NCBI GenBank assembly: GCA_029564595.1
Contig: JAKQPS010000045.1
Location: 1 to 22,406 of the forward strand
Direction of reading: 5' to 3'
From: a bacterium
Lineage (GTDB): Bacteria > UBP15 > UBA6099
Length of the DNA stretch: 22,406 bases
Below, piece after piece: positions 3,900-22,234 of the stretch. The notes under the pieces were generated by a model. That model made no database searches. It saw nothing but the letters and a program-made list of their open reading frames with translations, and was not told where the DNA came from. Position 1 is the first letter of the stretch, and every line of letters begins with the position of its first letter. Made by a program: the position numbers and the translations under genes.

Positions 3900-6800
3900 T
3901 TAAAAATCGGAGCGGAGTTTCAGGTTGAAGAGAGTGCCGTCGTAAGCTGATGAAGAGCCGGTTTGTTTGTCTTTTTTCAGGCTGAAAGAAAGAGTGAAAT
4001 GCTTATCGAGGAGAGTTTCAGATTCGAGAAGGTATCTGACGCGGTCGGGGGAGCCGGGGCCGGATTTTTCAGTGTTAAATTCTGCGCGGAGGCTGGTCGA
4101 CGGAGAATACGCGTAGGAGGCTCCGGTGGTGTAGGAGGAGCGAGTTTCGCCGCCAGAAGCGCCGCTGGTTCTGATGAAGGTGGCGGAGGTTTTCCAGTCG
4201 AGACGCCCGCCGGGGAAGTACCGGGTAGAAAATGCTGTTCTGTCCTGATTAGACGTGTCGGAAGTCCAATCCGCCGAAGATGAGGAGCCGGCGCGGGAAG
4301 AAGTCCTGCGGTTGCGGTATCCCTCAAGCGTGGCTGTCCATGGCGAAGAGCCGCCGGGGGTATACATTGCCCTTGCTCCGAAATCCCTGTTCACGCTTCC
4401 GCTGCGTTCCTCGACGAGTGTTTTGGAATAAACAACGCGCGGGCTGAGGAGCCATTTGCAGTTCAGACGGTAATCGATTCTGCCGGTGGACGCTTCGGTC
4501 AGCGAGTCGCCGTAATAAGGATTGGGTTTTTTCTGTCTGCTGAAGCTGACGAGGACGGACTCGGTTTTTGTGCCGGGTTTCATTTTTGCGATGGCTTCCA
4601 TGTTGTCCACCCGCGAGTTTTCCGAGCCGGGGCGCATGTCGTTGAGCATCTGAGTGTCGAACTTGGCCATTATCACCCATAGAGGGTCGGGTATGTAAAC
4701 CACGTCAAGGAGGCCGGAGTTCGTGATTGTCTTGAAAGTCGAGTCTGTCCCCGCAGAAATGGAATCGGGAGCGACGTATTTGACCTCGTTTTTATTCAGG
4801 GAAAGCTTCATTTTCAAGTTCGGTTCAGGATCGTATTTGATGTCCACGCCGCCTTTGGAGACGAAGTAGTCGCTAGTGCGGTCGGTGTCGTCGTTGAAAT
4901 CGCTTTTCTCGATATGGGCGAGAATTGAAACTTCGTCGGAGTCGTTGGGCACATAGAGAGTTTCGAGGCGGTGCGAGGCTCGGTTTTCGTCCATTTCATA
5001 ATATCTGGAAGTTTTGACGTCTTCGCGGGTGCGCAGATTTAAGGAATAACCTACGCGGCGGAATGTTTTCCCTCGATGCTCGACTGTGGCGCGGATGTCC
5101 CGGGTTTCGTAGCTGCCGCCGCCGGAGAAGTCCCTTCCGTGTTCGCGGCTGGAGTATTCCAAGCCTGTCTGGATTGATTTCATGAACAGATATTTTGCGG
5201 AGATTGAGAGCCTTTCTGATTCAAGATCGTTGTATTGATTCATTGGGGCGAAGAACCAGCTTTTGCGCATATACTCGCCGGAGAGGGAGCCGTTTTTCAG
5301 GCGGACGTCGGCGGTGGCGCGCGCGGCTTTTCCCTCTTGAGAGTCGGAGCCGGAGTAGCTTGGAGCGTGTTTGTAACTTGCGATTATCGTCGTGCCAGCC
5401 GGGAGGTCTTTCTGGAAACGGATAGCCGTTCTGTCAGCCGCCGTGTCGTATTCCATAACGTAGTCCGTGCCGGACCTCTGGCGGGAGCCGGGGGAGAATG
5501 TGTCATTCAGGTAAATCTCCTCGGTATTGCTTATGGCGTTCTGTCGGAGGTAGAAGACGCGCAGTCCGACATCCGCGGCTCCCACGGTTGCCACCCGCTC
5601 TTCGAGAACCTGAACTGATTTAAGAGTCATGTCCGAGGACGATTCGGCGTATTCGCCCCGGAGGACGGCCGGGCCGAGGGTTAGCCTTCCCGTCAGGTCG
5701 GCCACCGAGCGGGTGTGGTCGCCGCTCAATGACGCCAGCGGGGGGACAATTTCATAACTTATCACCACATGCCTGTCCAGATGCTCGTCCGGCCTTGCTC
5801 CCGTGTCCAGAAAATCAATCGAGTTGTTCGCTTCGTTTATTTCGTAATCAACGCCGGAGACAAGAGAGCGTTCGAGCGCCTCCATCAAGTAGAGTTCGGC
5901 CACTTCCGTTCCGCCGTAAACCCGCTCGCGTCCCAGAACATACGAGTCCCTAGCCGTTCCGCGCAACTCCTCGCCTGAAACCCATTGCAGGTAATCCGGA
6001 TTGTAATATTCGAAGTAAACAGAAACGGATATGGCGTCGACGGGAAATGCGACGAGGAATTTGATTCTTCCGGCGGGCCAGTCTATTTCGTAGTCCTCGC
6101 CGCGTTTGAGGGGGATATTCGACTCGCCGCTTTGCGCGAGGGCGCGGAGAGTGACGGTCTCTCTCAGTTTAACCAGTCTCGTGCGGCCTAATTCGAGAAA
6201 CACCCCGATGGCCGCGTCCGGCTCGAATATTTTTTCGCCCTCAAAAACCGTTTCCCTCGCGGCGCGGCTTACACCTTCCTCGACGTATGCCGCTCCGAAG
6301 TCGTACACTGGATGGGACGGATTCGTTCGCGCGGAGAAACCTGTCAACGCCCCTGTTTTCGCCGTCGCCATCAGCACGGATTCATAGGTGATTTCGATTA
6401 TCTCGGAGGGGTCGATATTTCTGTTGAAAGTTATCTGGCCGAGGAAGTAATCGACAGAATAATCGGAAGGCGGAACCCGGCGGTTGTTTATCGTTACCGA
6501 CTCGCTTCCTTCCATTATGGAGTGTGAGCGCAGAGCATAAGGCCCTCGGATGTTGCGGCCTCTGAATGTCTCGCGGGATGTTTCGCTTTTTCCGCGCGAA
6601 GCGAACGCCGAGACGGAATAGCTTCCGAAGTCATAAGCGGCGTCCAGTCCCCTGATGGTTTTTCTGAATTCGGCCATCGGCCCGGCTTTGAATTGGGCGG
6701 AAGTGTCTCCGACAGTGGCGTAGCCGCGCGGCCCAGACGCCTTGAAATAAAACTCGTTGTCCTGATAAGGATTCTCAACGAAAGAACCGTCTACGGAAAG

Positions 6801-7547
6801 GCCGTTCTTCATGGCTCCGTCAACGCTGATGCGAGTCCGCTGGGTGAGTTTGTCGTTGTAATAAAGAAGCCCGTTGTTTGACAGGAAAGCAATTTCGTTT
6901 CCTGTCGAGGAGGAAGTCTGCGCGTTAAGTTCGAGAGAACCATATACGCGTATTGCGTCGTCTTCGCGCGCGGCTCGTGTTTTGTCGCGTTTGCTAGACG
7001 CCGGGAAGACAGGTTCCCGTTGCGCGGGGGCCGGGCATTTCTCTGTTTCCTCTGCCGAGGCAGCGATAGCAGGGGCGCTTTTCGTGGCAGGAGATTTTTT
7101 GTCGTTTGAATCTGAGACGGGTTTTTCCGTTTCCGAGCCGAGGAGCATTTTATCAAGAGCGTCGAGTTCGCCGGGTTTTTCCTCCGGCTCGGCAATTTGG
7201 GCTGATGCGGGGGGGGCGGATTTTTCTATCGCTTTGTCTGCTTCCGGCGGGGCTTCCAAAGTTATCATCCGTTTGCGCGATTTCAAAGGCGTAATGTCTT
7301 CCGGTGGAAGATTGTCTTGGAGCCATTCGACGGATTCAGCGGCGGAGACAGCGACAGGTTGGACATAAGTCGGTTTTGCAGGTTGAGACTGGGAGATATC
7401 TTCAATCTCTTGAGCAGCCGCAAAAATTGAATTCATAAGCAAAACGATAGATAGGGAAACAATAAACAGCGATAGGAAGCCCTTCCGCTTCGAGCGGCGA
7501 CTGAGCGCGGCGCGCGGCGTTTTCTTTGCGGCCTTCATCATCGGCAT
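3900..7547 (-). CDS. Large predicted outer-membrane beta-barrel protein with SprA-like DY-ID modules
   Basis: The 1215-residue protein has a basic N-terminus, a hydrophobic segment at about 24-42 and a likely signal peptidase site after AAA (43-45). Residues 50-200 are a Pro/Glu/Lys/Ala-rich linker. From about 200 on it alternates aromatic and polar residues like outer-membrane strands. It ends LKLRSDF, a terminal-Phe strand of the kind recognised by the BAM machinery. Four modules of the pattern 'DY-x-(V/I)-(D/N/E)...(G)-x-I-x-F...I-x-(I/V)-x-Y' lie at about 351-390, 481-516, 562-600 and 692-728. The first follows RGPYALRSHSIMEGSE. Similar modules occur in the secretion channel component SprA and other large uncharacterised outer-membrane proteins. 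No plug or TonB box is evident and the function is unknown. No clear ribosome binding site precedes the ATG. Confidence 0.8.
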   Translation of the reverse strand: MPMMKAAKKTPRAALSRRSKRKGFLSLFIVSLSIVLLMNSIFAAAQEIEDISQSQPAKPTYVQPVAVSAAESVEWLQDNLPPEDITPLKSRKRMITLEAPPEADKAIEKSAPPASAQIAEPEEKPGELDALDKMLLGSETEKPVSDSNDKKSPATKSAPAIAASAEETEKCPAPAQREPVFPASSKRDKTRAAREDDAIRVYGSLELNAQTSSSTGNEIAFLSNNGLLYYNDKLTQRTRISVDGAMKNGLSVDGSFVENPYQDNEFYFKASGPRGYATVGDTSAQFKAGPMAEFRKTIRGLDAAYDFGSYSVSAFASRGKSETSRETFRGRNIRGPYALRSHSIMEGSESVTINNRRVPPSDYSVDYFLGQITFNRNIDPSEIIEITYESVLMATAKTGALTGFSARTNPSHPVYDFGAAYVEEGVSRAARETVFEGEKIFEPDAAIGVFLELGRTRLVKLRETVTLRALAQSGESNIPLKRGEDYEIDWPAGRIKFLVAFPVDAISVSVYFEYYNPDYLQWVSGEELRGTARDSYVLGRERVYGGTEVAELYLMEALERSLVSGVDYEINEANNSIDFLDTGARPDEHLDRHVVISYEIVPPLASLSGDHTRSVADLTGRLTLGPAVLRGEYAESSSDMTLKSVQVLEERVATVGAADVGLRVFYLRQNAISNTEEIYLNDTFSPGSRQRSGTDYVMEYDTAADRTAIRFQKDLPAGTTIIASYKHAPSYSGSDSQEGKAARATADVRLKNGSLSGEYMRKSWFFAPMNQYNDLESERLSISAKYLFMKSIQTGLEYSSREHGRDFSGGGSYETRDIRATVEHRGKTFRRVGYSLNLRTREDVKTSRYYEMDENRASHRLETLYVPNDSDEVSILAHIEKSDFNDDTDRTSDYFVSKGGVDIKYDPEPNLKMKLSLNKNEVKYVAPDSISAGTDSTFKTITNSGLLDVVYIPDPLWVIMAKFDTQMLNDMRPGSENSRVDNMEAIAKMKPGTKTESVLVSFSRQKKPNPYYGDSLTEASTGRIDYRLNCKWLLSPRVVYSKTLVEERSGSVNRDFGARAMYTPGGSSPWTATLEGYRNRRTSSRAGSSSSADWTSDTSNQDRTAFSTRYFPGGRLDWKTSATFIRTSGASGGETRSSYTTGASYAYSPSTSLRAEFNTEKSGPGSPDRVRYLLESETLLDKHFTLSFSLKKDKQTGSSSAYDGTLFNLKLRSDF

Positions 7548-7726: not shown

Positions 7727-9805
7727 ATGCGCAAGCTGTTCTATCCTGACTCGGTCGCTGTGATCGGGGTTTCGGACAGGCCGGACAACATCGCGGGCAA
7801 CGTTGTACGGAACCTAATCAACTGGAAGTATCCGGGCGCGGTGCATGCCGTGAACCCGAAAGGCGGGCGGGCGTTCGACATGAGGATCCACGAGTCTCTG
7901 CGCGACATTCCCGGGGAAGTGGACGTCGCGGTGGTTCTGACGCCGGCGCGCGTGCTGCCGGGGATATTGGAAGACGCGCATGAAAAAGGCGTGGAATATT
8001 TGTGCGTCGAGAGCGCGGGGTTTTCCGAGCTTGGGGCGGAAGGGGAAAATCTGGCGAATGAAATCACTCTGAAAGCCGCCGGATACGGAATAAAATTCGT
8101 CGGCCCGAACGGGCTTGGAGTCATCAACGCCGAGAAAAGACTTTGTCTGCCGTTCTCGTCGCTGACCCGGTGGGAAGCGGGGCCGGTGTCTGTCATCGCG
8201 CAGAGCGGCGGGGTGGGGATGTCGCTGCTGGTGGGCATGCAGGAGCACAACGTCGCGGCCAATAAATTTGTGTCAATGGGCAACAAGTATTCTCTGGACG
8301 AAGTGGATTTTTTAAAGTATTTCATCGAGGACGAAAGCACAAAGGCGGTATTGATATATTTAGAGGGGATGAGCAGGGGCAGGGAGTTCGCGGATGTCGC
8401 GGCAAAAACGGACAAGCCGATACTGTTGTACAAGGCGAACACCACCGAAACGGGCGCGCGGCGCGCGATGTCCCACACCGCGGCGATGGCCAACGACGAT
8501 GATGTTCTGGACGCTGTTATCAAGAGAGCGGGAGTGATACGAGTCCGCTCGCTGGACCATCTTATGCAGTTTATCCCGATGTTTCTGAGGCCGAAGTTTA
8601 CGGGCCGGGGCATATCGATAGTGTCCCCCGCCGGAGGGTTCACGGTAATAGCGGCCGACCGCGCGGAAGAGAGCGGGTTCAAATTTCCGGAGCTTTCAGC
8701 GGAGACGGAAGAAACGCTGAGGGAAAAGGCGAGGGCGGGAGTAATAAAAATCGGCAACCCGGTGGATTTGGGAGACGCGTTGAGCACGGACACGCAGGTG
8801 TTGGCGGTTGACCTCACGCTGTCTCAAGAAGACATCGCGGGTTGTATGTACGTCACGGCGCGGCGGCAGGCTGGGAACTACACCGGGCCGTTTTCATCGA
8901 TGTTGCGAAACCCGGTTCCAGAGCTTGAAGAGCTATCGGACAAGAGGGGCAAGCCGGTCGCGGCCGTCTTCGTCGGACCTGCAAAGATGGCGGCGGAATT
9001 CAGAGAGAGCGCAAAGCTTCCGGTGTATAGCTCGATAGACGCGGCGACGGAGGCGATGGCCGCGTGGCGCGATTATTGTTTGAGGCCGAAGCCGCGCGGG
9101 CGATGCGGCGAGGTCCGCATGTCCGAAGAATTTACAGATATTGAGGAATCGATAAAACCCGGTTATGTGTCAGGAGCTAAGGCATTCGGATTGTTGAGGG
9201 CGGCGGGCGTTCCGGTGGTTGAATTCGAGGAAGTTTCCGACGAGGACGGCGCGGTTGAAGCGGCTTCGCGGATGGGGTATCCCGTCGCGATGAAAGTGGC
9301 TTCGGAGAAAATCGTCCACAAGACCGAATCGGGAGGCATAGCGCTGGGAATACGGAATGAAGCGGAATGCCGGGCTGCTTATGCGAGGTTGAAGAAAATA
9401 ATTGACGAGAGCGGAGCGTCAGGCTGCGTGCTCGCGCAGAAGATGGCCGGCCCCGGGGTGGAAGTGATAGTGGGAGCAAAACGAGACCCCCATTTCGGGC
9501 CTGTAGTCATGTTCGGTTTGGGCGGCGTTTTTGTTGAGATGATGAAAGACGTGGTCTTCCGGCCCGCGCCGGTTGATTTCGAAGAGGCGCTTGATATGAC
9601 CGCCGGGATCAAAGCGGCGGGGATGTTGCGGGGAGCGCGCGGTCTGCCGAAATCGGATTTAAAAGCGCTGGCGGAGGCGATAGCAGCCGCAAGCAGGCTG
9701 GCGGCAGGGAGCCGACGGATAGCTGAGTTGGACATCAATCCCCTGATTGTTTTTCCCGAAGGAGAAGGTTGCGCGGCGGTAGACGCCCGGATGATTCTGG
9801 AATGA
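7727..9805 (+). CDS. NDP-forming acetyl/acyl-CoA synthetase, fused alpha and beta domains
   Basis: Enzymes of this family (EC 6.2.1.13 type) convert acyl-CoA, ADP and phosphate to acid, CoA and ATP. They serve substrate-level phosphorylation in archaea and anaerobic bacteria. The 692 residues comprise a CoA-binding Rossmann domain (about 1-130, with VAVIGVSDRPDN at the start and FVGPNGLG near 124-131) and two succinyl-CoA-ligase-like domains (about 150-450). The phosphohistidine is probably His250 in RRAMSHTAAM. A C-terminal ATP-grasp domain (about 475-690) has YPVAMKVASEKIVHKTESGG, MFGLGGVFVE and ELDINPL. Length and order fit the single-chain alpha-beta form. The acyl substrate cannot be told from sequence. 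It stands alone between a divergent outer-membrane protein gene and the sensor kinase gene 96 bases downstream, so its operon membership is unclear. Confidence 0.92.
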   Translation: MRKLFYPDSVAVIGVSDRPDNIAGNVVRNLINWKYPGAVHAVNPKGGRAFDMRIHESLRDIPGEVDVAVVLTPARVLPGILEDAHEKGVEYLCVESAGFSELGAEGENLANEITLKAAGYGIKFVGPNGLGVINAEKRLCLPFSSLTRWEAGPVSVIAQSGGVGMSLLVGMQEHNVAANKFVSMGNKYSLDEVDFLKYFIEDESTKAVLIYLEGMSRGREFADVAAKTDKPILLYKANTTETGARRAMSHTAAMANDDDVLDAVIKRAGVIRVRSLDHLMQFIPMFLRPKFTGRGISIVSPAGGFTVIAADRAEESGFKFPELSAETEETLREKARAGVIKIGNPVDLGDALSTDTQVLAVDLTLSQEDIAGCMYVTARRQAGNYTGPFSSMLRNPVPELEELSDKRGKPVAAVFVGPAKMAAEFRESAKLPVYSSIDAATEAMAAWRDYCLRPKPRGRCGEVRMSEEFTDIEESIKPGYVSGAKAFGLLRAAGVPVVEFEEVSDEDGAVEAASRMGYPVAMKVASEKIVHKTESGGIALGIRNEAECRAAYARLKKIIDESGASGCVLAQKMAGPGVEVIVGAKRDPHFGPVVMFGLGGVFVEMMKDVVFRPAPVDFEEALDMTAGIKAAGMLRGARGLPKSDLKALAEAIAAASRLAAGSRRIAELDINPLIVFPEGEGCAAVDARMILE

Positions 9806-9901: not shown

Positions 9902-11479
9902 ATGTTGAGGCGAAGCATCGGGTTCAAACTCATTATTCTGATAATAGCTTTCTCGTCCGCGTGTTTAACCGTGTTTGTTTATTTTCTTCAAAAGGAACTC
10001 AGCGCGCAGCACAAAGACGACCTTATGTCTCAGGCGCATGAGATCGGGGACAGAGTAAGCAGAGACATCAGAGACGGCATGCTGCTGCACGGAGATTCCG
10101 ACACGCGGCGCACTCTGGAGAGCATCGGTTATCAGGCGATAGTAAGAAAAGTGCGGATACTCGACAATAAAGGAGTCATAGCGGCGTCGACGGACGAAGC
10201 CGAAGAGGGAAGAAAAGTGGCGCTTGAGGACCCGTCGTGCGCGCGATGCCACGCCAAACAGGGAGCGGAAGGCTGGAAGATGGGCGAGGGCGACATAAGC
10301 GAATGCGTTATTAAAACAGATACGGGAGAGCGCATCGCCAACGTCGCGATACCGATTCCCAACAGGCCGAACTGTCAGACATCGCTATGTCACGCGGGAG
10401 AAAGAGGCGCGAAAACATTGGGCTTGGTTGTCGTGGAGATAAGTCTTGAAAGCGTCTATCACAGGCTTAGCGACCGCTTGAGAAAAAACATTGCATTCGC
10501 GATTATTCTAGTAGCCGGACTTTCTGCCGTCGGAAGCGCTTTTATTTACTGGATGATATATCTGCCGCTCAGAAAGATAATAAGCGGAACAAAGGCCGTC
10601 GCGGCTGGAAGGCTTAACGAGCCTATCGATATAGGCAATAAAAGAGATGAAATCGGATACCTCGCCCGGTCTTTCAACAAAATGACGGAAAGAATAAGGG
10701 ACATGACCGGGCATTTGAACAGGATGAACGTCGAGCTTGAGCACAAGGTCGAGGAACGCACTCTCGAATTAAAGAAAACGCAGGAAAGCGTGATGCAGTC
10801 GGAGAAGCTGGCGTCTCTCGGTCTTATGGCCGCCGCCATCGCGCACGAAATCAACAACCCGCTCACAGCGGTGTTGACATACAGCGCGCTGTTGGCCAAG
10901 CAGGCTCCCGAAGGCTCGGAAACCAAAGAAGACCTCGAAGTGATAGTGTCCGAGACAACCCGATGCAGGTCTATCGTCAGAGGACTTCTGGACTTTGCCC
11001 GCGAAACGGAGTTCAGACAGAAATCGGTCAATATCAATCAGCTTCTCGAAGAGACGATAGCGTTGCTCAAGCATCAGGTGATGTTTCAGGATATAGATAT
11101 CGTTAGAAACATGGCCGCTTATCTGCCGGACACAATAATGGACGCGGATCAGGTCAAGCAGGTGTTCATAAACATGATGCTGAACGCGGCGGACGCGATG
11201 CCGAGCGGCGGCAAACTTTTCGTCAGGACTTCCTCGGACTACATCCAGAACGAGATAACGATAGAGTTCACGGACACCGGGGTAGGCATCCCCGAAAGAG
11301 ACGTAAAAAGAGTATTCGACCCGTTCTTCACAACGAAGGAAAAAGGGCGCGGAACGGGGTTGGGGCTGTCGGTGTCGTACGGCATCGTGCAGAGGCACGG
11401 CGGCGCCATTGATGTTAAAAGCAGGGTTGGGCAGGGGACGACTTTCATGATAACATTCCCGGTCGACAATACGCAGTGA
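9902..11479 (+). CDS. Membrane sensor histidine kinase with periplasmic c-type haem motifs
   Basis: This 525-residue kinase has a first membrane helix at about 8-28, a periplasmic domain to about 195 and a second helix at about 197-222. A HAMP domain (about 222-275) and a short coiled coil (275-300) follow. The HisKA phosphoacceptor is His315 in AHEINNPL. The ATPase domain has the N box around NMMLNAADAM, DTGVGIP and GTGLGLS. The periplasmic part holds CARCH (Cys113-Cys116-His117), a canonical c-haem attachment motif, and a CX4CH motif (Cys158-Cys163-His164) of the kind known from multihaem cytochromes. One or two covalent haems, and so redox or gas sensing, are therefore inferred. GGAG lies seven bases before the ATG, and TATAAT stands at 9870-9875 without a good -35. 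The NtrC-type gene 13 bases downstream is the expected partner. Confidence 0.92.
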   Translation: MLRRSIGFKLIILIIAFSSACLTVFVYFLQKELSAQHKDDLMSQAHEIGDRVSRDIRDGMLLHGDSDTRRTLESIGYQAIVRKVRILDNKGVIAASTDEAEEGRKVALEDPSCARCHAKQGAEGWKMGEGDISECVIKTDTGERIANVAIPIPNRPNCQTSLCHAGERGAKTLGLVVVEISLESVYHRLSDRLRKNIAFAIILVAGLSAVGSAFIYWMIYLPLRKIISGTKAVAAGRLNEPIDIGNKRDEIGYLARSFNKMTERIRDMTGHLNRMNVELEHKVEERTLELKKTQESVMQSEKLASLGLMAAAIAHEINNPLTAVLTYSALLAKQAPEGSETKEDLEVIVSETTRCRSIVRGLLDFARETEFRQKSVNINQLLEETIALLKHQVMFQDIDIVRNMAAYLPDTIMDADQVKQVFINMMLNAADAMPSGGKLFVRTSSDYIQNEITIEFTDTGVGIPERDVKRVFDPFFTTKEKGRGTGLGLSVSYGIVQRHGGAIDVKSRVGQGTTFMITFPVDNTQ

Positions 11480-11492
11480 GCGGAGGCGCGGC

Positions 11493-12905
11493 ATGGCCGC
11501 AAGACCACGGATACTTGTAATAGACGACGAGCCGACAGTATGCAAAAGCGTGTCTAAAATCCTTACGCCCGAAGGATTCGATGTGGACATGGAGACGGAG
11601 CCGAAAGAGGGCCTCGTCAAAGCCGTGTCTGGGGCCTACGACCTTGTGATAACGGACATAAAGATGCCCGGAATCAGCGGCATCGACATACTCCGGATAG
11701 TTAAAGAAGAATCTCCGTGGACGTGCGTGATTGTGATAACCGGCTATTCGACCGTCGGTTCGGCGGTGGAGGCTATGAAGGAGGGCGCTTTCGACTACGT
11801 GCCGAAGCCTTTCACCCCTGACGAGCTTTCCCTAGTCGTGAAGCGCGCTTTCGAAAAAAAGATACTAATCGAGGAAAACAGATATCTTCGCGGAGAGATC
11901 GAGGACAAGTACAAGCTCGACAGAATGGTGGGCAAGAGCGGCGTGATGCAGCACATCTTCAAGCTGGTGAACATCGTGTCGCCGACCAACAGCGCCGCCC
12001 TGATTTACGGCGAGAGCGGAACGGGCAAGGAGATGGTGGCCCGCGCGGTTCATTACAACAGCCCGCGCTCGAAGAAAAGATTCGTCCCTGTGGACTGCAA
12101 CGCGCTGGCTGACAACCTTTTTGAGAGCGAGATGTTCGGGCATGAAAGAGGGGCCTTCACAGGGGCGGTGCGGGAGAAAAAGGGCCTTATCGAAGAAGCG
12201 GACGGAGGCACTCTTTTTCTAGATGAAATCTCCAATATCAGCCTCGACGCGCAGGCGAAACTCCTTCGCGCCCTCGAATCTCGCGAGGTCAAACATGTGG
12301 GCGGCGCGGAATTGAAGCGAGTCGATTTCAGGCTTATATGCGCCACCAACAAAGACTTGATGAAGATGGTTCAGGAGGGAACGTTCAGAGAGGACCTTTA
12401 CTACAGAATAAACGTGTTTCCCATAAACCTGCCTCCTTTGCGCAAGCGTCCGGAAGACATACCGATGCTGGCCGCGCATTTTCTGAAGAACTTCGCCTCG
12501 GAAACCGCCAAGAATATCACAGGGATCGACCGGGACGCGATGGACCTGCTGGCCGGGCATGACTGGCCGGGCAACGTGCGCGAGTTGAAAAACGTGATAG
12601 AGAGAATAGTGATAATGACATTCAGCGACACGGTCTCGCGCCGAACGGTGGCGGAGATATTGGGCAAAGCAGCCGGCGCTGAAGAGAACGAGGCGGCCCC
12701 TGAGAATAACGAGGAGTTGAAAGAGGCCCGGCGGGCGGCGAAAAAACAGGCGGTCGAGGAAATCGAAAAGAAATTCGTGATCAACGCTCTCAAAAAATCC
12801 GGCTGGAACATCACCAAAGCCGCAAGAGAAACAGGAATGCAAAGACAGAATTTTCAAGCCTTGGCAAGCAAATTCAAAATAGAGGCCGAAGACGACGAGC
12901 AGTGA
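11493..12905 (+). CDS. NtrC-family sigma54-dependent response regulator
   Basis: The 470-residue protein has three domains. The receiver (1-122) has acidic residues Asp11 and Asp12, phosphoacceptor Asp55 in ITDIKMPG, and Lys105 in VPKPF. The AAA+ domain (about 145-380) has Walker A GESGTGKE (173-180), the sigma54-contacting loop GAFTGA (220-225), Walker B LFLDEI (241-246) and an arginine-finger region at FREDLYYRINVFPINLPPLR. The C-terminal Fis-type helix-turn-helix (about 438-461) reads WNITKAARETGMQRQNFQAL. All elements needed to activate sigma54 promoters are intact. The ribosome binding site GGAGG lies six bases before the ATG. It follows the haem-motif kinase by 13 bases, so that kinase is its probable phosphodonor. 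Its targets are unknown. Confidence 0.96.
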   Translation: MAARPRILVIDDEPTVCKSVSKILTPEGFDVDMETEPKEGLVKAVSGAYDLVITDIKMPGISGIDILRIVKEESPWTCVIVITGYSTVGSAVEAMKEGAFDYVPKPFTPDELSLVVKRAFEKKILIEENRYLRGEIEDKYKLDRMVGKSGVMQHIFKLVNIVSPTNSAALIYGESGTGKEMVARAVHYNSPRSKKRFVPVDCNALADNLFESEMFGHERGAFTGAVREKKGLIEEADGGTLFLDEISNISLDAQAKLLRALESREVKHVGGAELKRVDFRLICATNKDLMKMVQEGTFREDLYYRINVFPINLPPLRKRPEDIPMLAAHFLKNFASETAKNITGIDRDAMDLLAGHDWPGNVRELKNVIERIVIMTFSDTVSRRTVAEILGKAAGAEENEAAPENNEELKEARRAAKKQAVEEIEKKFVINALKKSGWNITKAARETGMQRQNFQALASKFKIEAEDDEQ

Positions 12906-12944: not shown

Positions 12945-13844
12945 GTGCGAACTGTGGCGGATAGAAGAAAAGCTCTCGTAATAGACGACGAGCCGCTGGT
13001 CTGCAGAAGCGTAAAAAAAATCTTGGCCATTGAGGAAATCGACACAGACATCGCGACATCGGGTCGCGAAGGGCTTGTGATGGCGCGCAACTCGAAATAC
13101 GACATGTTGCTGGTGGACGTGAAGATGCCTGAAATGAACGGATACGCCGTGGTGAGGATGATGCGGGAAATCCAGCCGACCCTTCCAATCATCGTTATTT
13201 CAGGATACAACACCCCGCACACGCGCGAACAGGCATTCACCAGCGGGGCGAACGAATTTGTTCCGAAACCGTTCCTGCCGGAGGAAATCAGAGATGTCGC
13301 TCTGAAACTTCTCAAAGGCATGGGAACCGATAAGGCGAAGGCGGACGCCTCCGCGGAAAGCGGGAGCGGCTCTGATTCCGCGCCGGGCTCCGCTTCGAAA
13401 CGGGACGCAAAATCGGCGATAGGCTATGCCTGCGTCAATCAGTCCGGCTCGCATGACGCGCTTTCTGCCGAAGAACAGAAGAAGCTGATTTGCAGATTCG
13501 CGGATTCATCCGGGATGACTATTTCCTCAGTCTATGAGGATACCGAGGCGGGCGTTCAGGCCATAAAACGGCCCGCGTTGCTAAGGATACTCGACACCGA
13601 AACAACCCCCGGAACGGTGATCGTCGGAGAAATTTGCTGCGTCGGGAAGAACCGCCGGGAACTCCGCGACACTCTTGAAGCCCTTGACGCCGCCGGGATG
13701 AAACTTGTCTCCGCGTCGGAAAAAATGGACCACCTGTCCCAATTCGTGCGCATGTGGTATGAAGACAGAGAAGCGGCGCGGCGGGAAGAAGCGGAAGAGT
13801 CGAAGGATAGCGGCGGCGCCGCCGCAGCGCCGCCGGACGTTTGA
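12945..13844 (+). CDS. Receiver domain fused to a serine-recombinase-like domain lacking the catalytic Ser
   Basis: Residues 7-125 are a complete receiver domain: Asp14 and Asp15, phosphoacceptor Asp58 in LLVDVKMPEMNG, Ser86, and Lys108 in VPKPF. A Ser/Ala/Gly-rich linker (about 128-155) leads to residues 157-260, which read as a resolvase/invertase N-terminal fold. IGYACVNQ replaces the family's GYARVS, AEEQKKLICRFADSSGM matches helix A, and VYEDTEAGVQAIKRPAL matches the 'ED-x-GS...RPAL' stretch. TVIVGEICCVGKNRRELRDT stands where 'VVxKLDRLSRS' is expected, followed by AAGMKLVSASE. The catalytic Ser is Asn165, the neighbouring Arg is Cys163, and the Asp-Arg-Leu-x-Arg group is lost, so recombination should be impossible. 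There is no recombinase DNA-binding tail, only a charged low-complexity end. The start is GTG at 12945; a second GTG stands at 12954. It lies 39 bases after the NtrC-type gene. Confidence 0.88.
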   Translation: MRTVADRRKALVIDDEPLVCRSVKKILAIEEIDTDIATSGREGLVMARNSKYDMLLVDVKMPEMNGYAVVRMMREIQPTLPIIVISGYNTPHTREQAFTSGANEFVPKPFLPEEIRDVALKLLKGMGTDKAKADASAESGSGSDSAPGSASKRDAKSAIGYACVNQSGSHDALSAEEQKKLICRFADSSGMTISSVYEDTEAGVQAIKRPALLRILDTETTPGTVIVGEICCVGKNRRELRDTLEALDAAGMKLVSASEKMDHLSQFVRMWYEDREAARREEAEESKDSGGAAAAPPDV

Positions 13845-13891: not shown

Positions 13892-15628
13892 ATGATATTG
13901 CAAGACGCGCTATCGTGCGGCATCCCTTGGGCCGAGTCAAGAAAACTGGTTTACAGGAACGCTCCCGAATCATGCAGGGATATGTTCAGCGAAGACGGCC
14001 AGTTCAGCGACGTTGAGCCTTTCACGCCGGTGGAGATGGACGCGCTGAAGGATTTGCCCTCTCTCGTTTCGATTATGACGGAGCCGGAGAACTACGTGAC
14101 GGGAATAAAGTCGGGCGCGCGGCTCGGCGACGCGCGGCTGAACTGGCACGCCGGTTTGATAGAGACCTCCGCAAGCGCGGAATTCCTATGGCTCGACCTG
14201 CGCGAGCTTCAGATAAAAATAATGTATCAGAATACCTTCAGGGGGCTTCTGCAGAGGGATGAGCATTCCACGGACCAGATTGCGGAGATGTTCAGATACT
14301 ACAACAGGGCTTTGCACACTTTCAGACGCCTGAAATTCATCCGGTGGACAAAGATCGCGGTGCGCGACGGCAGGGCGAGAATCTTCATATACAACGAACA
14401 GTCGCCGTATCCTAACCAAAGGGCGCAGTTGTTGCTGGAACGCTCCTTTTTCTCAAACCGCCCGGCGGAGTGCGAGATGCTGGACGAGGAAAGGTGGCAG
14501 GATGCGTGGCCTCATGTCCGTAAAAGGATAGAGTTCTGGAGACTCGAAGAAAGCGGTGAGCTTACGGACGACTATCTCGACGAAGCGATACGCTCCGACG
14601 ACAAGGTTCTGGCGGCGTGGGCGGGCGGATATATGCGGCGCGCGGGAGACCCGCTCGTTGTGGAACGGATCCGCGAGCAGATAGTGGGAGCTCCCGCCGA
14701 GGAGGCGCGCGCCTCGATACGAGCCGCCGGAAGGCTGTGGCTCAACGAACTCGAAAACGATGTCATGGCCCAATACAACAGGCACGGCAACTCCGTCGGC
14801 CCGGCGGTCGCCGACTACATAGGAGCCATCGGCCTCACAGGTCGGACTTTCCTTCCGAAGATACTCCGCACCATGACCCGTCGCGGCGATTTGGCCACTA
14901 TCATGGCCGCCGTGGCCGCGATGCGCTCCTTCCCGCACACTGCGGAGGCAAAGGCTCTGCCGGAGAGCCTTGAGCTTCTGCTCAAGCTTTCGGGCGACAT
15001 GGAATCAGTTGTAGAAAGGTTCCCCGGAATCGCGTCAGACCTCTACACGGCGAAGGAACCGCGGCGGTCGGCCCGGCCTCTGACGCTCGAAATCCTCCGC
15101 GCATCTGCCGCCGGGGCGATAATCGAAACAACAGCTCAAAGCGCGGACGAACAGACTTTCGCCGCAGTCACAAGCTTCATCCCTTTCGACTCTCAACTCT
15201 TGGACAAATTGCTCGAAGAAATCGAAACGAGCATCCGGACGGACGCGTCGCCGTATCTGCTGGGTCTCTTGCGCGCGGCGTCGGACACATCGAAGAAATG
15301 GGCCGGTGGCCTGCCCGCCACCCGCCGCATGGTCATTATCGCCCGCACTCTCATGAGAGTGAACAAGCCGGAGGACCGGTTCCAGCTTCTCGTCGAGGCC
15401 CTGCCGTTTCTGGCCGCTCACGTCGGCTCTTTCCACAAAGACTGCAACCTTGAATTCTGCTTCCACGTGGACAATCTCCCTATGGAGCCACTGATTTCTC
15501 TCAGGTCCATACTCAAGGGGTTGCCGGACGAGGCGGACATTGTGGACAGACTAATATCGAGGGGCGGGTTCAGCGACAAAGAGAAGTTTCTTGTAAGCGA
15601 GATGGCGGTCGACCGGCAGGGCTTTTAA
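13892..15628 (+). CDS. Uncharacterised 578-residue helical protein (possible HEAT-like repeats)
   Basis: I do not recognise a family. There is no signal peptide or membrane segment, so it is predicted cytoplasmic. Residues 1-220 are mixed and rich in aromatic residues, with a helical stretch around 105-150 and a likely beta hairpin near 152-168. From about 225 to 350 pairs of amphipathic helices (such as DEAIRSDDKVLAAWAGGYMR and VMAQYNRHGNSVGPAVADYI) resemble HEAT or ARM repeats, though this is an impression, not a family match. The C-terminal part stays helical and includes HKDCNLEFCFHVDN, a Cys/His-rich patch. GGAG lies nine bases before the ATG, and the gene starts 47 bases after the receiver-resolvase gene in the same direction. 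Co-transcription is likely, and it may be the effector or partner of the cluster. Codon use looks like its neighbours. Confidence 0.8.
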   Translation: MILQDALSCGIPWAESRKLVYRNAPESCRDMFSEDGQFSDVEPFTPVEMDALKDLPSLVSIMTEPENYVTGIKSGARLGDARLNWHAGLIETSASAEFLWLDLRELQIKIMYQNTFRGLLQRDEHSTDQIAEMFRYYNRALHTFRRLKFIRWTKIAVRDGRARIFIYNEQSPYPNQRAQLLLERSFFSNRPAECEMLDEERWQDAWPHVRKRIEFWRLEESGELTDDYLDEAIRSDDKVLAAWAGGYMRRAGDPLVVERIREQIVGAPAEEARASIRAAGRLWLNELENDVMAQYNRHGNSVGPAVADYIGAIGLTGRTFLPKILRTMTRRGDLATIMAAVAAMRSFPHTAEAKALPESLELLLKLSGDMESVVERFPGIASDLYTAKEPRRSARPLTLEILRASAAGAIIETTAQSADEQTFAAVTSFIPFDSQLLDKLLEEIETSIRTDASPYLLGLLRAASDTSKKWAGGLPATRRMVIIARTLMRVNKPEDRFQLLVEALPFLAAHVGSFHKDCNLEFCFHVDNLPMEPLISLRSILKGLPDEADIVDRLISRGGFSDKEKFLVSEMAVDRQGF

Positions 15629-18784: not shown

Positions 18785-20494
18785 ATGTTCACACCGGCGG
18801 GAAAACTGGGCAAGACCCTTATCAAGAAGAACCTCGTCACGCCCGCGCAGTGGGACGAGGCGATGCGCGCTGCCAAAGAAGACCCGGATGTTTCCGTAGA
18901 CCAATTCCTCATCGAAAAAGGCTATATTGAAGAAGTAGAGATACTTAAGATAGACGCCAACGAGCTTGGACATGCCTATGTGAACCTTTCAGAGGTTGAC
19001 TTCGACCCCAAGCTCGTCAAGATGATACCCCGGCACATAGCTGAAAAGTACAAAGTGATGATAGTCAGCAGGGCGGACGGCAAGATCAACCTCGCCATGG
19101 CCAATCCGCTGAATCCTTTCGCGATAGACGACATCAATACTTTGACCAACAGCAAAATCCTGCCCATGCTCGGCTCCGAAAAACAGATAATGGAGAAGAT
19201 AGACGAGGTCTATACGCAACTCGAATCGGCGGACGACATACTCGGCGGAATGGTCCAAGAGGACCAGCAGATGAAGGCCATAGAAGACGAGGAGACGCTG
19301 TCGACAACGGCCCTAGCTTCGGCGGCTGAGGAAGCCCCGGTCATCCGGCTCAGCAACTCAATAATAATGCAGGCGGTTAAAGACGGGGCCAGCGACATCC
19401 ACGTTGAACCGAGCAAGACTTCCGTCAGGATACGTTTCAGGATCGACGGCGTCATGCACGAGGAAATGAAGTTCCCCCGGAAACTGCACGCCGCTCTCGT
19501 TTCGAGATTCAAGATACTCGCCAAGCTGGACATCGGCGAAAAAAGAGTGCCGCAGGACGGGCGCATCCCTCTCCGGGTCGAAGGCAGGGAGATCGACTTG
19601 CGCGTCGCCACTCTGCCTACTGTATGGGGCGAGAAGGTCACGATGCGCATACTCGACAAGTCAAGCATTCTCATCGGACTCGAACAGTTGGGTTTCGAAT
19701 CGAACGACTTGAAAAGGTTTAGAGAGCTTATAAATAAACCATACGGAATTATATTCAGCACTGGCCCGACAGGGTCCGGAAAAACGACGACTCTGTACGC
19801 CGTGCTCAATGAATTGAACGGCGTGGATAAAAACCTGATATCGATAGAAGACCCGATAGAATACCAGTTGTCGGGCGTGGCGCAAGCGCAGGTGAACGTA
19901 AAGGCGGGGCTGACGTTCGCGGGCGGTCTTCGCTCAATGCTTCGGCAGGACCCTGACATAGTAATGGTGGGAGAGTTGCGCGACAAGGAGACCGCCGAGG
20001 TGGCTATTCAGGCGTCTCTGACCGGACACCTTGTGCTGGCGACTATCCACGCGAACGACAGCGCAAGCACCATCACCCGGTTGTTCCACATGGGTGTTGA
20101 ACCCTACCTCGTTGCGTCGTCTGTGATATGCATTCTGGCGCAGAGGCTTGTCAGGAAGATATGCCCGGAATGCAAAGTTGACTACACGCCTCCCCCGGAA
20201 GCGCTTCAAAGGCTCGGCATACCTCCCGGAACCAAGCTGTACCGCGGGCAGGGATGCGAGTTCTGCCGCGAGACGGGATATCTAGGCCGGGTCGGCGTTT
20301 ACGAAATGATGCAACTCGACGACGAACTGAGATTGTTGATAACGGAAGAAGCGTCGGCTCCGGACATCAGACGCAAAGGGATTGAATTGGGGATGTACAC
20401 CCTGCAGCAGGACGGAATAAGGAAAGTCATAGCGGGCGTCACGAGCATAGAAGAAGCCATGCGAGTGTTGTTCGACACAGGGGTCAAAACGTAA
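18785..20494 (+). CDS. pilB: Type IV pilus / type II secretion assembly ATPase (PilB/GspE), first copy
   Basis: This 569-residue hexameric ATPase is expected to power pilin polymerisation at the inner membrane. It has two N-terminal MshEN-type segments (about 5-145; GKLGKTLIKKNLVTPAQWDE and VMIVSRADGKINLAMANPLN), then an acidic linker and the N2 domain (SDIHVEPSKTSVRIRFRIDG). The Walker A is GPTGSGKT (327-334, Lys333), the Asp box IEDPIEY, the Walker B DPDIVMVGELRD and the His box TGHLVLATIHAND. A tetracysteine zinc site (Cys460, Cys463, Cys491, Cys494) marks PilB/GspE and excludes the retraction ATPase PilT. The ATG directly follows the aroE stop with no good ribosome binding site, suggesting translational coupling. 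PilB against GspE cannot be settled without the missing partner genes. Confidence 0.93.
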   Translation: MFTPAGKLGKTLIKKNLVTPAQWDEAMRAAKEDPDVSVDQFLIEKGYIEEVEILKIDANELGHAYVNLSEVDFDPKLVKMIPRHIAEKYKVMIVSRADGKINLAMANPLNPFAIDDINTLTNSKILPMLGSEKQIMEKIDEVYTQLESADDILGGMVQEDQQMKAIEDEETLSTTALASAAEEAPVIRLSNSIIMQAVKDGASDIHVEPSKTSVRIRFRIDGVMHEEMKFPRKLHAALVSRFKILAKLDIGEKRVPQDGRIPLRVEGREIDLRVATLPTVWGEKVTMRILDKSSILIGLEQLGFESNDLKRFRELINKPYGIIFSTGPTGSGKTTTLYAVLNELNGVDKNLISIEDPIEYQLSGVAQAQVNVKAGLTFAGGLRSMLRQDPDIVMVGELRDKETAEVAIQASLTGHLVLATIHANDSASTITRLFHMGVEPYLVASSVICILAQRLVRKICPECKVDYTPPPEALQRLGIPPGTKLYRGQGCEFCRETGYLGRVGVYEMMQLDDELRLLITEEASAPDIRRKGIELGMYTLQQDGIRKVIAGVTSIEEAMRVLFDTGVKT

Positions 20495-20497
20495 GGC

Positions 20498-22234
20498 ATG
20501 GAAAAGAGCCAGAAAAAGAACGGAAGAAAGAAACTCGGCGAACTGCTAATCGAGAACGGTTTGATAACCGAAGAGCAGTTGCAGGAGGCTCTTGACGTTC
20601 AGAGGAATTCGCCGGAGCTGTTAGGAAAGATTATGACGAACCTCGGATTCGTCACCGAGCTTGACGTGCTCAAGATGATAGCGGTGCAGCTTGGCGTTCC
20701 GTTCGTAGACCTGTCTCGCGTCAAAGTCGTTCCCATCATAGCGAAGTCGCTGCCGCCGCACATAGCGCAGCGCCATAAAGTCATCCCCATCAGCAAGGAC
20801 AAACGAAAAATAGTGCTCGCGATGGTGAACCCTCTTAACGTGTTCGCCATAGACGAGGTCCGGCTGACCACCGGGCTGGACGTTGTTCCGGTTCTTGCTC
20901 AGGAAGAGCAGTTGCTGATGTCCGTGCATGCCAATTACGGCGTGGACGAGAGCACCGCGAAGGCTATAGAAAGCCTTCATAAAATGGGCATCGACGCCAA
21001 CGTCGTCGAACGGCTGGAAGACGCGGAAGAAGACGACATCGCGGTTTCAAAAGTCAAGGACCTGACTGAGGATTCGCCGATTGTCAAGCTTGTTAACGCG
21101 ATAATCGTTCAAGCGATCGAGGCTCGCGCCAGCGATATCCACATAGAGCCGATGCGGGAAATGGTCAGGGTCAGATTCAGGGTGGACGGCGTTCTTCACG
21201 AGGCTATGCGCCCCCCGAAGAAAATTCAGGCGGAGTTGCTCTCGCGCATCAAGGTTCTGGCCGATCTTAATATCGCCGAAAAACGAGTGCCTCAGGACGG
21301 TCGCATCAACCTTTTAGTCGCCGGCAGGGAGTTCGACTTCCGCGTGTCGACTTATCCGACCCAGAACGGCGAAAAAATAGTCCTTAGAATATTAGACAAG
21401 AGCAGCGTGCTCATCGGGCTTAACAGGCTCGGCTTTACGACCGACGTGCAGAGAATTTTTGAAGGCATGATACACAGCCCGGTCGGGCTTCTGCTCGTCA
21501 CAGGCCCCACCGGAAGCGGAAAAAGCACCACTCTTTACTCAGTGCTCAACCAGTTGAACACAGTTTCGACTCACATCCTCACAGTGGAAGACCCCTGCGA
21601 ATATATGCTCGAAGGAATAAATCAGGTGCAGGTCAACCCGAAAGCGAACGTCCTGTTCGCCAACACTCTGCGCTCCTTCCTCCGCAACGACCCTGACATT
21701 ATTATGGTCGGCGAAATCCGCGACAAAGAGACTGCCGAGATAGCGATACAGGCGGCGCTCACCGGCCACCTTGTGCTCAGCACTCTGCACACCAACGACG
21801 CGCCGAGCGCGGCTACCCGCCTGATAGATATGGGAATTGAGCCGTTCCTTGTGTCGTCGTCTCTCATCGGCTCGCTCGCTCAACGGCTTACCCGCGTGCT
21901 TTGCCCGGAATGTAAAGAACCTTACAAACCTCCCGAACACGAACTGCGGATGCTCAATATCCCGTTGGAAGAAGGCAAAAATCTCGCATTTTACAAACCG
22001 GTCGGTTGCGATATGTGCCGCGGCAATGGATACCGGGGCCGAATCGGAATATTCGAACTAATGGAACTGGACGACCAGTTTAAAGACCAGATTGTTAAGA
22101 AAGCAAGCGCTGTAAAACTTCGCGAGATGGCCGTCAAAACTGGCATGCAGACGCTGCAACAGGATGCCGTCACAAAGATAATTCAGGGAATCACCTCGCT
22201 CGAAGAAGCCATGCGCGTCGTTTATATCGCTTGA
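20498..22234 (+). CDS. pilB: Type IV pilus / type II secretion assembly ATPase (PilB/GspE), second copy
   Basis: This 578-residue paralogue starts three bases after the first copy and has the same layout. The N-terminal MshEN-type domain (about 10-150) begins KKLGELLIENGLITEEQLQE, with IVLAMVNPLNVFAIDEV further on. The N2 domain has ASDIHIEPMREMVRVRFRVD. Walker A is GPTGSGKS (336-343, Lys342), Walker B DPDIIMVGEIRD, the His box TGHLVLSTLHTND, and the zinc cysteines are Cys469, Cys472, Cys504 and Cys507. The Asp box reads VEDPCEY, with Cys where the first copy has Ile. All catalytic elements are intact, so both copies should be active. The difference lies mainly in the N-terminal third and linker, where partner proteins bind. 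Bases 22235-22406 beyond its stop show no gene I can support. Confidence 0.93.
   Translation: MEKSQKKNGRKKLGELLIENGLITEEQLQEALDVQRNSPELLGKIMTNLGFVTELDVLKMIAVQLGVPFVDLSRVKVVPIIAKSLPPHIAQRHKVIPISKDKRKIVLAMVNPLNVFAIDEVRLTTGLDVVPVLAQEEQLLMSVHANYGVDESTAKAIESLHKMGIDANVVERLEDAEEDDIAVSKVKDLTEDSPIVKLVNAIIVQAIEARASDIHIEPMREMVRVRFRVDGVLHEAMRPPKKIQAELLSRIKVLADLNIAEKRVPQDGRINLLVAGREFDFRVSTYPTQNGEKIVLRILDKSSVLIGLNRLGFTTDVQRIFEGMIHSPVGLLLVTGPTGSGKSTTLYSVLNQLNTVSTHILTVEDPCEYMLEGINQVQVNPKANVLFANTLRSFLRNDPDIIMVGEIRDKETAEIAIQAALTGHLVLSTLHTNDAPSAATRLIDMGIEPFLVSSSLIGSLAQRLTRVLCPECKEPYKPPEHELRMLNIPLEEGKNLAFYKPVGCDMCRGNGYRGRIGIFELMELDDQFKDQIVKKASAVKLREMAVKTGMQTLQQDAVTKIIQGITSLEEAMRVVYIA

Follow-up and report, generated by a model that had tools for sequence, protein, structure and literature searches.

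A response regulator with a catalytically dead serine-recombinase domain as its output, one of a small family found in two bacterial phyla

The fusion gene and its receiver

Why should a phosphorylation receiver be joined to a recombinase that cannot recombine? The question is raised by one gene in the 22,406-nucleotide stretch of DNA analysed here (the window), which named relatives assign to candidate phylum UBP15. At positions 12945–13844 (+) an open reading frame of 299 amino acids, with a GTG start closely preceded by a Shine-Dalgarno-like GGAAGG, was confirmed. The preliminary description of this gene, made from the sequence alone, saw in it a complete receiver, a flexible linker and a resolvase-like N-terminal domain that had lost its catalytic residues, and this reading was supported overall.

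The receiver occupies residues 11–117 (12975–13295, +; PF00072, E 2.5e-27). Asp58 and Lys108, already pointed out in the preliminary description, are present, as are the other residues that define a response-regulator receiver, namely the acidic pair Asp14/Asp15 and, at the Thr/Ser position, Ser86; all are invariant among homologues. The linker (residues about 126–156; 13320–13412, +) is of low complexity, predicted to be disordered (pLDDT about 30 in the full-length predicted structure) and fast-evolving under relaxed selection. The full-length model is otherwise poor (pLDDT 66, four sequences) and serves for the assessment of the linker only.

A recombinase fold without its active site

Residues 158–267 (13416–13745, +) match the serine-recombinase (resolvase N-terminal) family PF00239 with an E-value of 1.5e-8; the score of 35.3 bits is 12 bits clear of the gathering cut-off of 23.3, and the E-value was 3.1e-9 when the C-terminal part of the protein was searched alone. 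AlphaFold2 gave a confident model of the domain, with a mean pLDDT of 81.5. Foldseek analysis of this model returned only serine recombinases as top matches, the best being 3bvp (E 2.7e-7). Structural comparison placed TP901-1 integrase nearest (Z 13.5), with Bxb1, IS607 TnpA, Sin and gamma-delta resolvase also among the best matches. Matches to HflX and to periplasmic-binding proteins (Z 6–8) were taken to represent a common fold arrangement. Over residues 157–280, sequence and predicted fold both match the resolvase family; the lack of a significant match, which would have refuted the preliminary description, was not observed.

Judged against true recombinases from the same and other genomes, Cys163-Val164-Asn165 (13431–13439, +; motif GYACVN) replaces Arg8-Val-Ser10, and Cys231-Cys232-Val-Gly-Lys235 (13635–13649, +; motif EICCVGKNRRE) replaces Asp67-Arg68-Leu-Gly-Arg71. 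These are the changes that had been read at the outset as Ser to Asn165, Arg to Cys163 and KLDRLSR to EICCVGKNRRE. MAFFT opens a gap of one residue near the Ser column, which makes the corresponding position either Asn165 (ungapped) or Val164, neither of which is serine. The domain closes with a shortened alpha-E-like helix (13731–13811, +; helix 112–138 of the model, equivalent to residues 263–289) carrying a Ser265-Gln266-x-x-Arg269 motif. Beyond this helix lies only a low-complexity tail of about 10 residues. The absence of a recombinase DNA-binding tail was therefore upheld: the fusion has no HTH or other DNA-binding domain, and its C-terminal region gave no further Pfam match.

The domain and its homologues, which we name dRes, share with serine recombinases (PF00239; TP901-1 integrase, gamma-delta resolvase, Sin) the fold, the profile, the order of secondary structure elements and the start of alpha-E. 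They differ in lacking the nucleophilic Ser, Arg8, Asp67, Arg68 and the DNA-binding domain, in the shortening of alpha-E, and in possessing SQxxR where serine recombinases usually have T-x-x-G. A functional recombinase was ruled out, since the catalytic residues and the tail are absent from all ten homologues.

An N-terminal receiver, a linker and a co-encoded kinase are also found in response regulators with non-DNA-binding or protein-interaction outputs, but in the fusion the output is a dead serine-recombinase fold. The preliminary description knew of no response-regulator class of this kind, and we likewise found no report of a resolvase output in the open-licence literature. The search covered open-licence texts only, and the fusion may sit uncommented in large domain databases of response-regulator architectures. 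It represents a new output type for response regulators.

The dRes family in two phyla

The fusion belongs to a small family of dead resolvases. It was found in four further UBP15 genomes, one copy being partial. Two congeners encode it with 97% identity, a third congener has its C-terminal part only, at a contig edge, and in G004, from another genus of the same family, it is 40% identical. In addition, a domain-profile search revealed stand-alone dRes proteins of about 147–190 amino acids, one each in the three congeners and G004, and a tandem stand-alone pair in G191 and G323, which both belong to one genus of another phylum. Each lineage has two versions, the fusion and the stand-alone protein in UBP15 and the tandem pair in G191/G323. 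At strict thresholds, no further dRes was found in a survey of ~880 genomes. These comprised ~490 from two large phyla and a broad taxonomic sample that for the most part took one or two genomes from each family; large phyla are thinly sampled, and dRes may also exist elsewhere. The matches in G125 and G362 retain RVST and are ordinary recombinases, and none of the best 5000 plasmid records covered the fusion.

The PF00239 profile was matched by 10/10 family members. Homologues retaining the catalytic serine would have refuted the preliminary description, and none did so: Ser10, Arg8 and Asp67-Arg68 are absent from all ten dRes sequences, across both phyla. The Arg8 position is occupied by Cys or Ser, with Cys in the fusions and the tandem copies, and the Arg68 position by Cys, Ser or Ala. 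The family-specific SQxxR that opens the last helix is invariant (10/10). The fusion carries all the marks of the family, that is, the GY-x-C/S start, the dead active site, SQxxR at the start of alpha-E and membership of a clade of its own, which in the tree is separated from three true recombinases with support of 100/100. Orthology of the fusion to tandem copy A or B was unsupported; in the tree the tandem copies group with each other in a separate clade, and the fused sequences are not resolved.

All full-length dRes copies are intact open reading frames. Between congeners, dN/dS is 0.03–0.09 in the dead domain and 0–0.02 in the receiver, as against 0.35–3.0 in the linker, where sites are few. 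The dead domain is thus under strong purifying selection and is not decaying, and these values rule out a pseudogene. It is a clear example of an enzyme from a mobile element that strong selection has maintained although its chemistry is gone.

There was no detectable dRes in G005 and G006, from two sister families of the order, so any circuit of the kind proposed below runs without dRes there; a receiver protein of G006 in a syntenic-looking position (L006) has no resolvase match. The window's own assembly contains neither a stand-alone dRes nor its etfD-like neighbour (see below). The joint absence of the two probably reflects a gap in the assembly, though perhaps a loss.

The kinase and NtrC partners

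Two genes upstream of the fusion and in the same orientation is a histidine kinase gene (9902–11479, +; HAMP, HisKA and HATPase_c domains). The periplasmic part of its product contains CARCH (a CxxCH motif) and CQTSLCH, both of which are kept in the G004 kinase (65% identical), and it is possibly a c-type-heme sensor kinase. A weak match of this kinase to the Mcp40H-20 chemotaxis sensor family (E 0.014) was also recorded. Between the kinase and the fusion lies the gene for an NtrC-type response regulator (11493–12905, +), whose REC-AAA+-Fis HTH Pfam domains are those of a sigma-54 activator. The order HK - NtrC - fusion is the same in G004.

The tandem dRes genes of G191 and G323 lie divergent to an HK/NtrC pair. 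Of the 8 and 9 candidates in these two genomes, respectively, the protein that best matched the window's NtrC was the very NtrC that adjoins the dRes genes. The G191 kinase has six transmembrane segments and the motif GGIENPF, which follows the pattern GGXXNPF of the quinone motif in RegB (PMC8191878). From these motifs, CxxCH in UBP15 and GGIENPF in G191, the kinases look redox-related. The dRes systems share with NtrC-type (sigma-54) two-component systems having redox kinases, for example RegB-like quinone sensors, an HK and a REC-AAA+-HTH regulator, and in the G191 kinase the GGXXNPF motif; their candidate -24/-12 promoters and paired palindromes are also of the kind seen in such systems. 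They differ in the addition of dRes, present as one protein or two.

The stand-alone loci

The dRes family is mostly stand-alone and is tied to an EtfD-like operon with putative sigma-54 control. In 6/6 loci, distributed over both phyla, the stand-alone dRes gene is immediately 5' of a gene for an EtfD/DUF224-like membrane oxidoreductase. This neighbour has a NarI-like membrane part, and the complete one (719 amino acids) adds Fer4 and two CCG domains, the same architecture as is given for the ETF:quinone oxidoreductase DUF224/EtfD of Syntrophomonas wolfei, e.g. Swol_0698, in the parts of that account considered here (PMC3582634). Those parts mention no dRes, whereas the EtfD-like genes described here are preceded by dRes and by a putative sigma-54-type promoter.

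The candidate promoter is a -24/-12 sigma-54-like site just 5' of the dRes start, which in G004, G191 and G323 is the sole site on the contig with no more than one mismatch. The three congeners have a weaker sigma-54-like site at the corresponding place, with TTGAT at -12. Palindromic enhancer-like sites were located in 5/6 stand-alone loci. Two copies of GTATC-N7-GATAC lie in the dRes-HK/NtrC intergenic region of G191 (C16, L181) and G323 (C112, L182), where 0.08–0.09 per contig would be expected. In the congeners (L124, L125, L126), two or three copies of GGTGAAT-N9-ATTCACC, 123 bp apart, are found upstream of the stand-alone dRes, and exact copies occur nowhere else in these genomes. The paired palindromes are separated by 121–124 bp in both phyla and lie upstream of the promoter, the nearest one (degenerate in the congener) being centred 115–119 bp from it. 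This layout is that of NtrC-type enhancers, and we infer that the palindromes bind the dRes-associated NtrC. The congener-type palindrome was not found in G004 or in the region 5' of the window's own HK operon.

Proposed role of the fusion

It seems that a recombinase has been recycled as a regulatory part. Most likely, the fused dRes acts without catalysis, as a protein-interaction module controlled by phosphorylation, in a sigma-54 circuit that senses redox state. We favour protein interaction because the dRes family cannot recombine DNA and because its fused version has an acidic domain (pI 4.8, net charge -8). The fusion is the second response regulator of the HK - NtrC - REC-dRes operon, its output being a domesticated serine-recombinase catalytic domain from which DNA cutting and the DNA-binding tail have been lost. 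The kinase, perhaps responding to redox state through a c-type heme, would phosphorylate both NtrC and REC-dRes. As in the phosphorylation-gated oligomerisation proposed in the preliminary description, phosphorylation may then alter pairing of the fused dRes with the stand-alone dRes, via the retained face of the alpha-E helix. That unlike partners pair is suggested by the two dRes versions per lineage, and the acidic fused domain and the basic tails of the congener stand-alone proteins (+5) are compatible with it. The sigma-54-driven dRes-etfD-like operon would supply the stand-alone protein in parallel with the EtfD-like one. Pairing would tune HK/NtrC output on that operon, the candidate target of the pair being the HK, NtrC or another protein. 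In this way ETF-to-quinone electron-transfer capacity could follow redox state, with the operon's own product feeding back. This whole scheme, in which kinase-controlled dRes pairing tunes HK/NtrC output, is our best explanation, and we advance it tentatively, at somewhat less than even confidence. The sequences establish the architecture, the dead active site, the selection and the gene linkage, while phosphotransfer, pairing, target and regulation are inferred from them.

Several other explanations bear on the same evidence. The receiver could be mainly a phosphate sink or kinase competitor, with dRes as a constitutive dimerisation handle only. Such receivers are well known, and the fusion is co-encoded with the NtrC regulator and a single kinase; yet the constraint on dRes nearly equals that on the receiver, and both phyla encode dRes proteins without a receiver next to the EtfD-like gene, from which it follows that the domain acts by itself. 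We consider this explanation unlikely. We would say the same of a ligand-gated response regulator, in which the former active-site cleft of dRes would hold a small molecule or redox ligand. The fold does have an open Rossmann-like cleft, and the Arg8 to Cys change in the fusions and tandem copies occurs in a redox-related setting. However, the domain has no match to any ligand-binding family, and the Cys pair is unconserved; a conserved disulfide or metal site formed by Cys163 and Cys231/232 was accordingly rejected. That the domain is a functionless leftover of a degenerate recombinase, fused by chance, would account for the missing catalytic residues and DNA-binding tail and for the narrow distribution. 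It is hardly credible against the low dN/dS of the dead domain, the intact reading frames, the invariant SQxxR and the linkage kept across two phyla.

A further alternative is a non-catalytic architectural role on DNA. Resolvase subunits are established to dimerise, and to tetramerise across two DNA sites. Perhaps dRes pairing bridges NtrC dimers bound at the two palindromes and shapes the loop to the sigma-54 promoter, the receiver providing phosphorylation dependence. The spacing of the palindrome pairs, which is kept in two phyla despite their unlike sequences, and the basic character of some stand-alone dRes proteins (pI 8.4–9.0) argue for this. Against it, dRes has no HTH and is acidic in its fused form, resolvases normally reach the tetramer-forming state in the course of catalysis, and NtrC-type activators ordinarily have paired enhancers and need no extra bridge. 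We regard it as improbable. A more elaborate version is a long shot: the recombinase would have become a phosphorylation-gated assembly module, in which unlike dRes pairs (REC-dRes with the stand-alone protein, or dResA with dResB) put the synapsis interface to new use, bringing NtrC complexes at the paired enhancer palindromes together or parting them, and so place the ETF:quinone oxidoreductase operon under redox control.

The family offers an opportunity to find out what the serine-recombinase oligomer interface is capable of when no DNA is cleaved. The setting conserved in two phyla, a redox-type kinase, a sigma-54 activator, dRes and an EtfD-like oxidoreductase, points to a testable function behind a misleading 'resolvase' annotation.

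Other genes in the window

Directly 3' of the fusion, a gene at 13892–15628 (+) encodes a 578 amino acid protein with no significant Pfam match; it is missing from the corresponding neighbourhood in G004, in which the gene after the fusion is hisH-like. Just before the HK operon is an ADP-forming acyl-CoA synthetase-like gene (7727–9805, +; CoA_binding, Succ_CoA_lig and ATP-grasp domains), a homologue of which in G004 closely precedes the stand-alone dRes rather than the HK operon. The gene at 3900–7547 (-) specifies a 1215 amino acid protein, again with no significant Pfam match, which is possibly an outer-membrane or surface protein. Tandem genes at 18785–20494 and 20498–22234 (both +) appear to code for PilB/GspE-like secretion or pilus ATPases.
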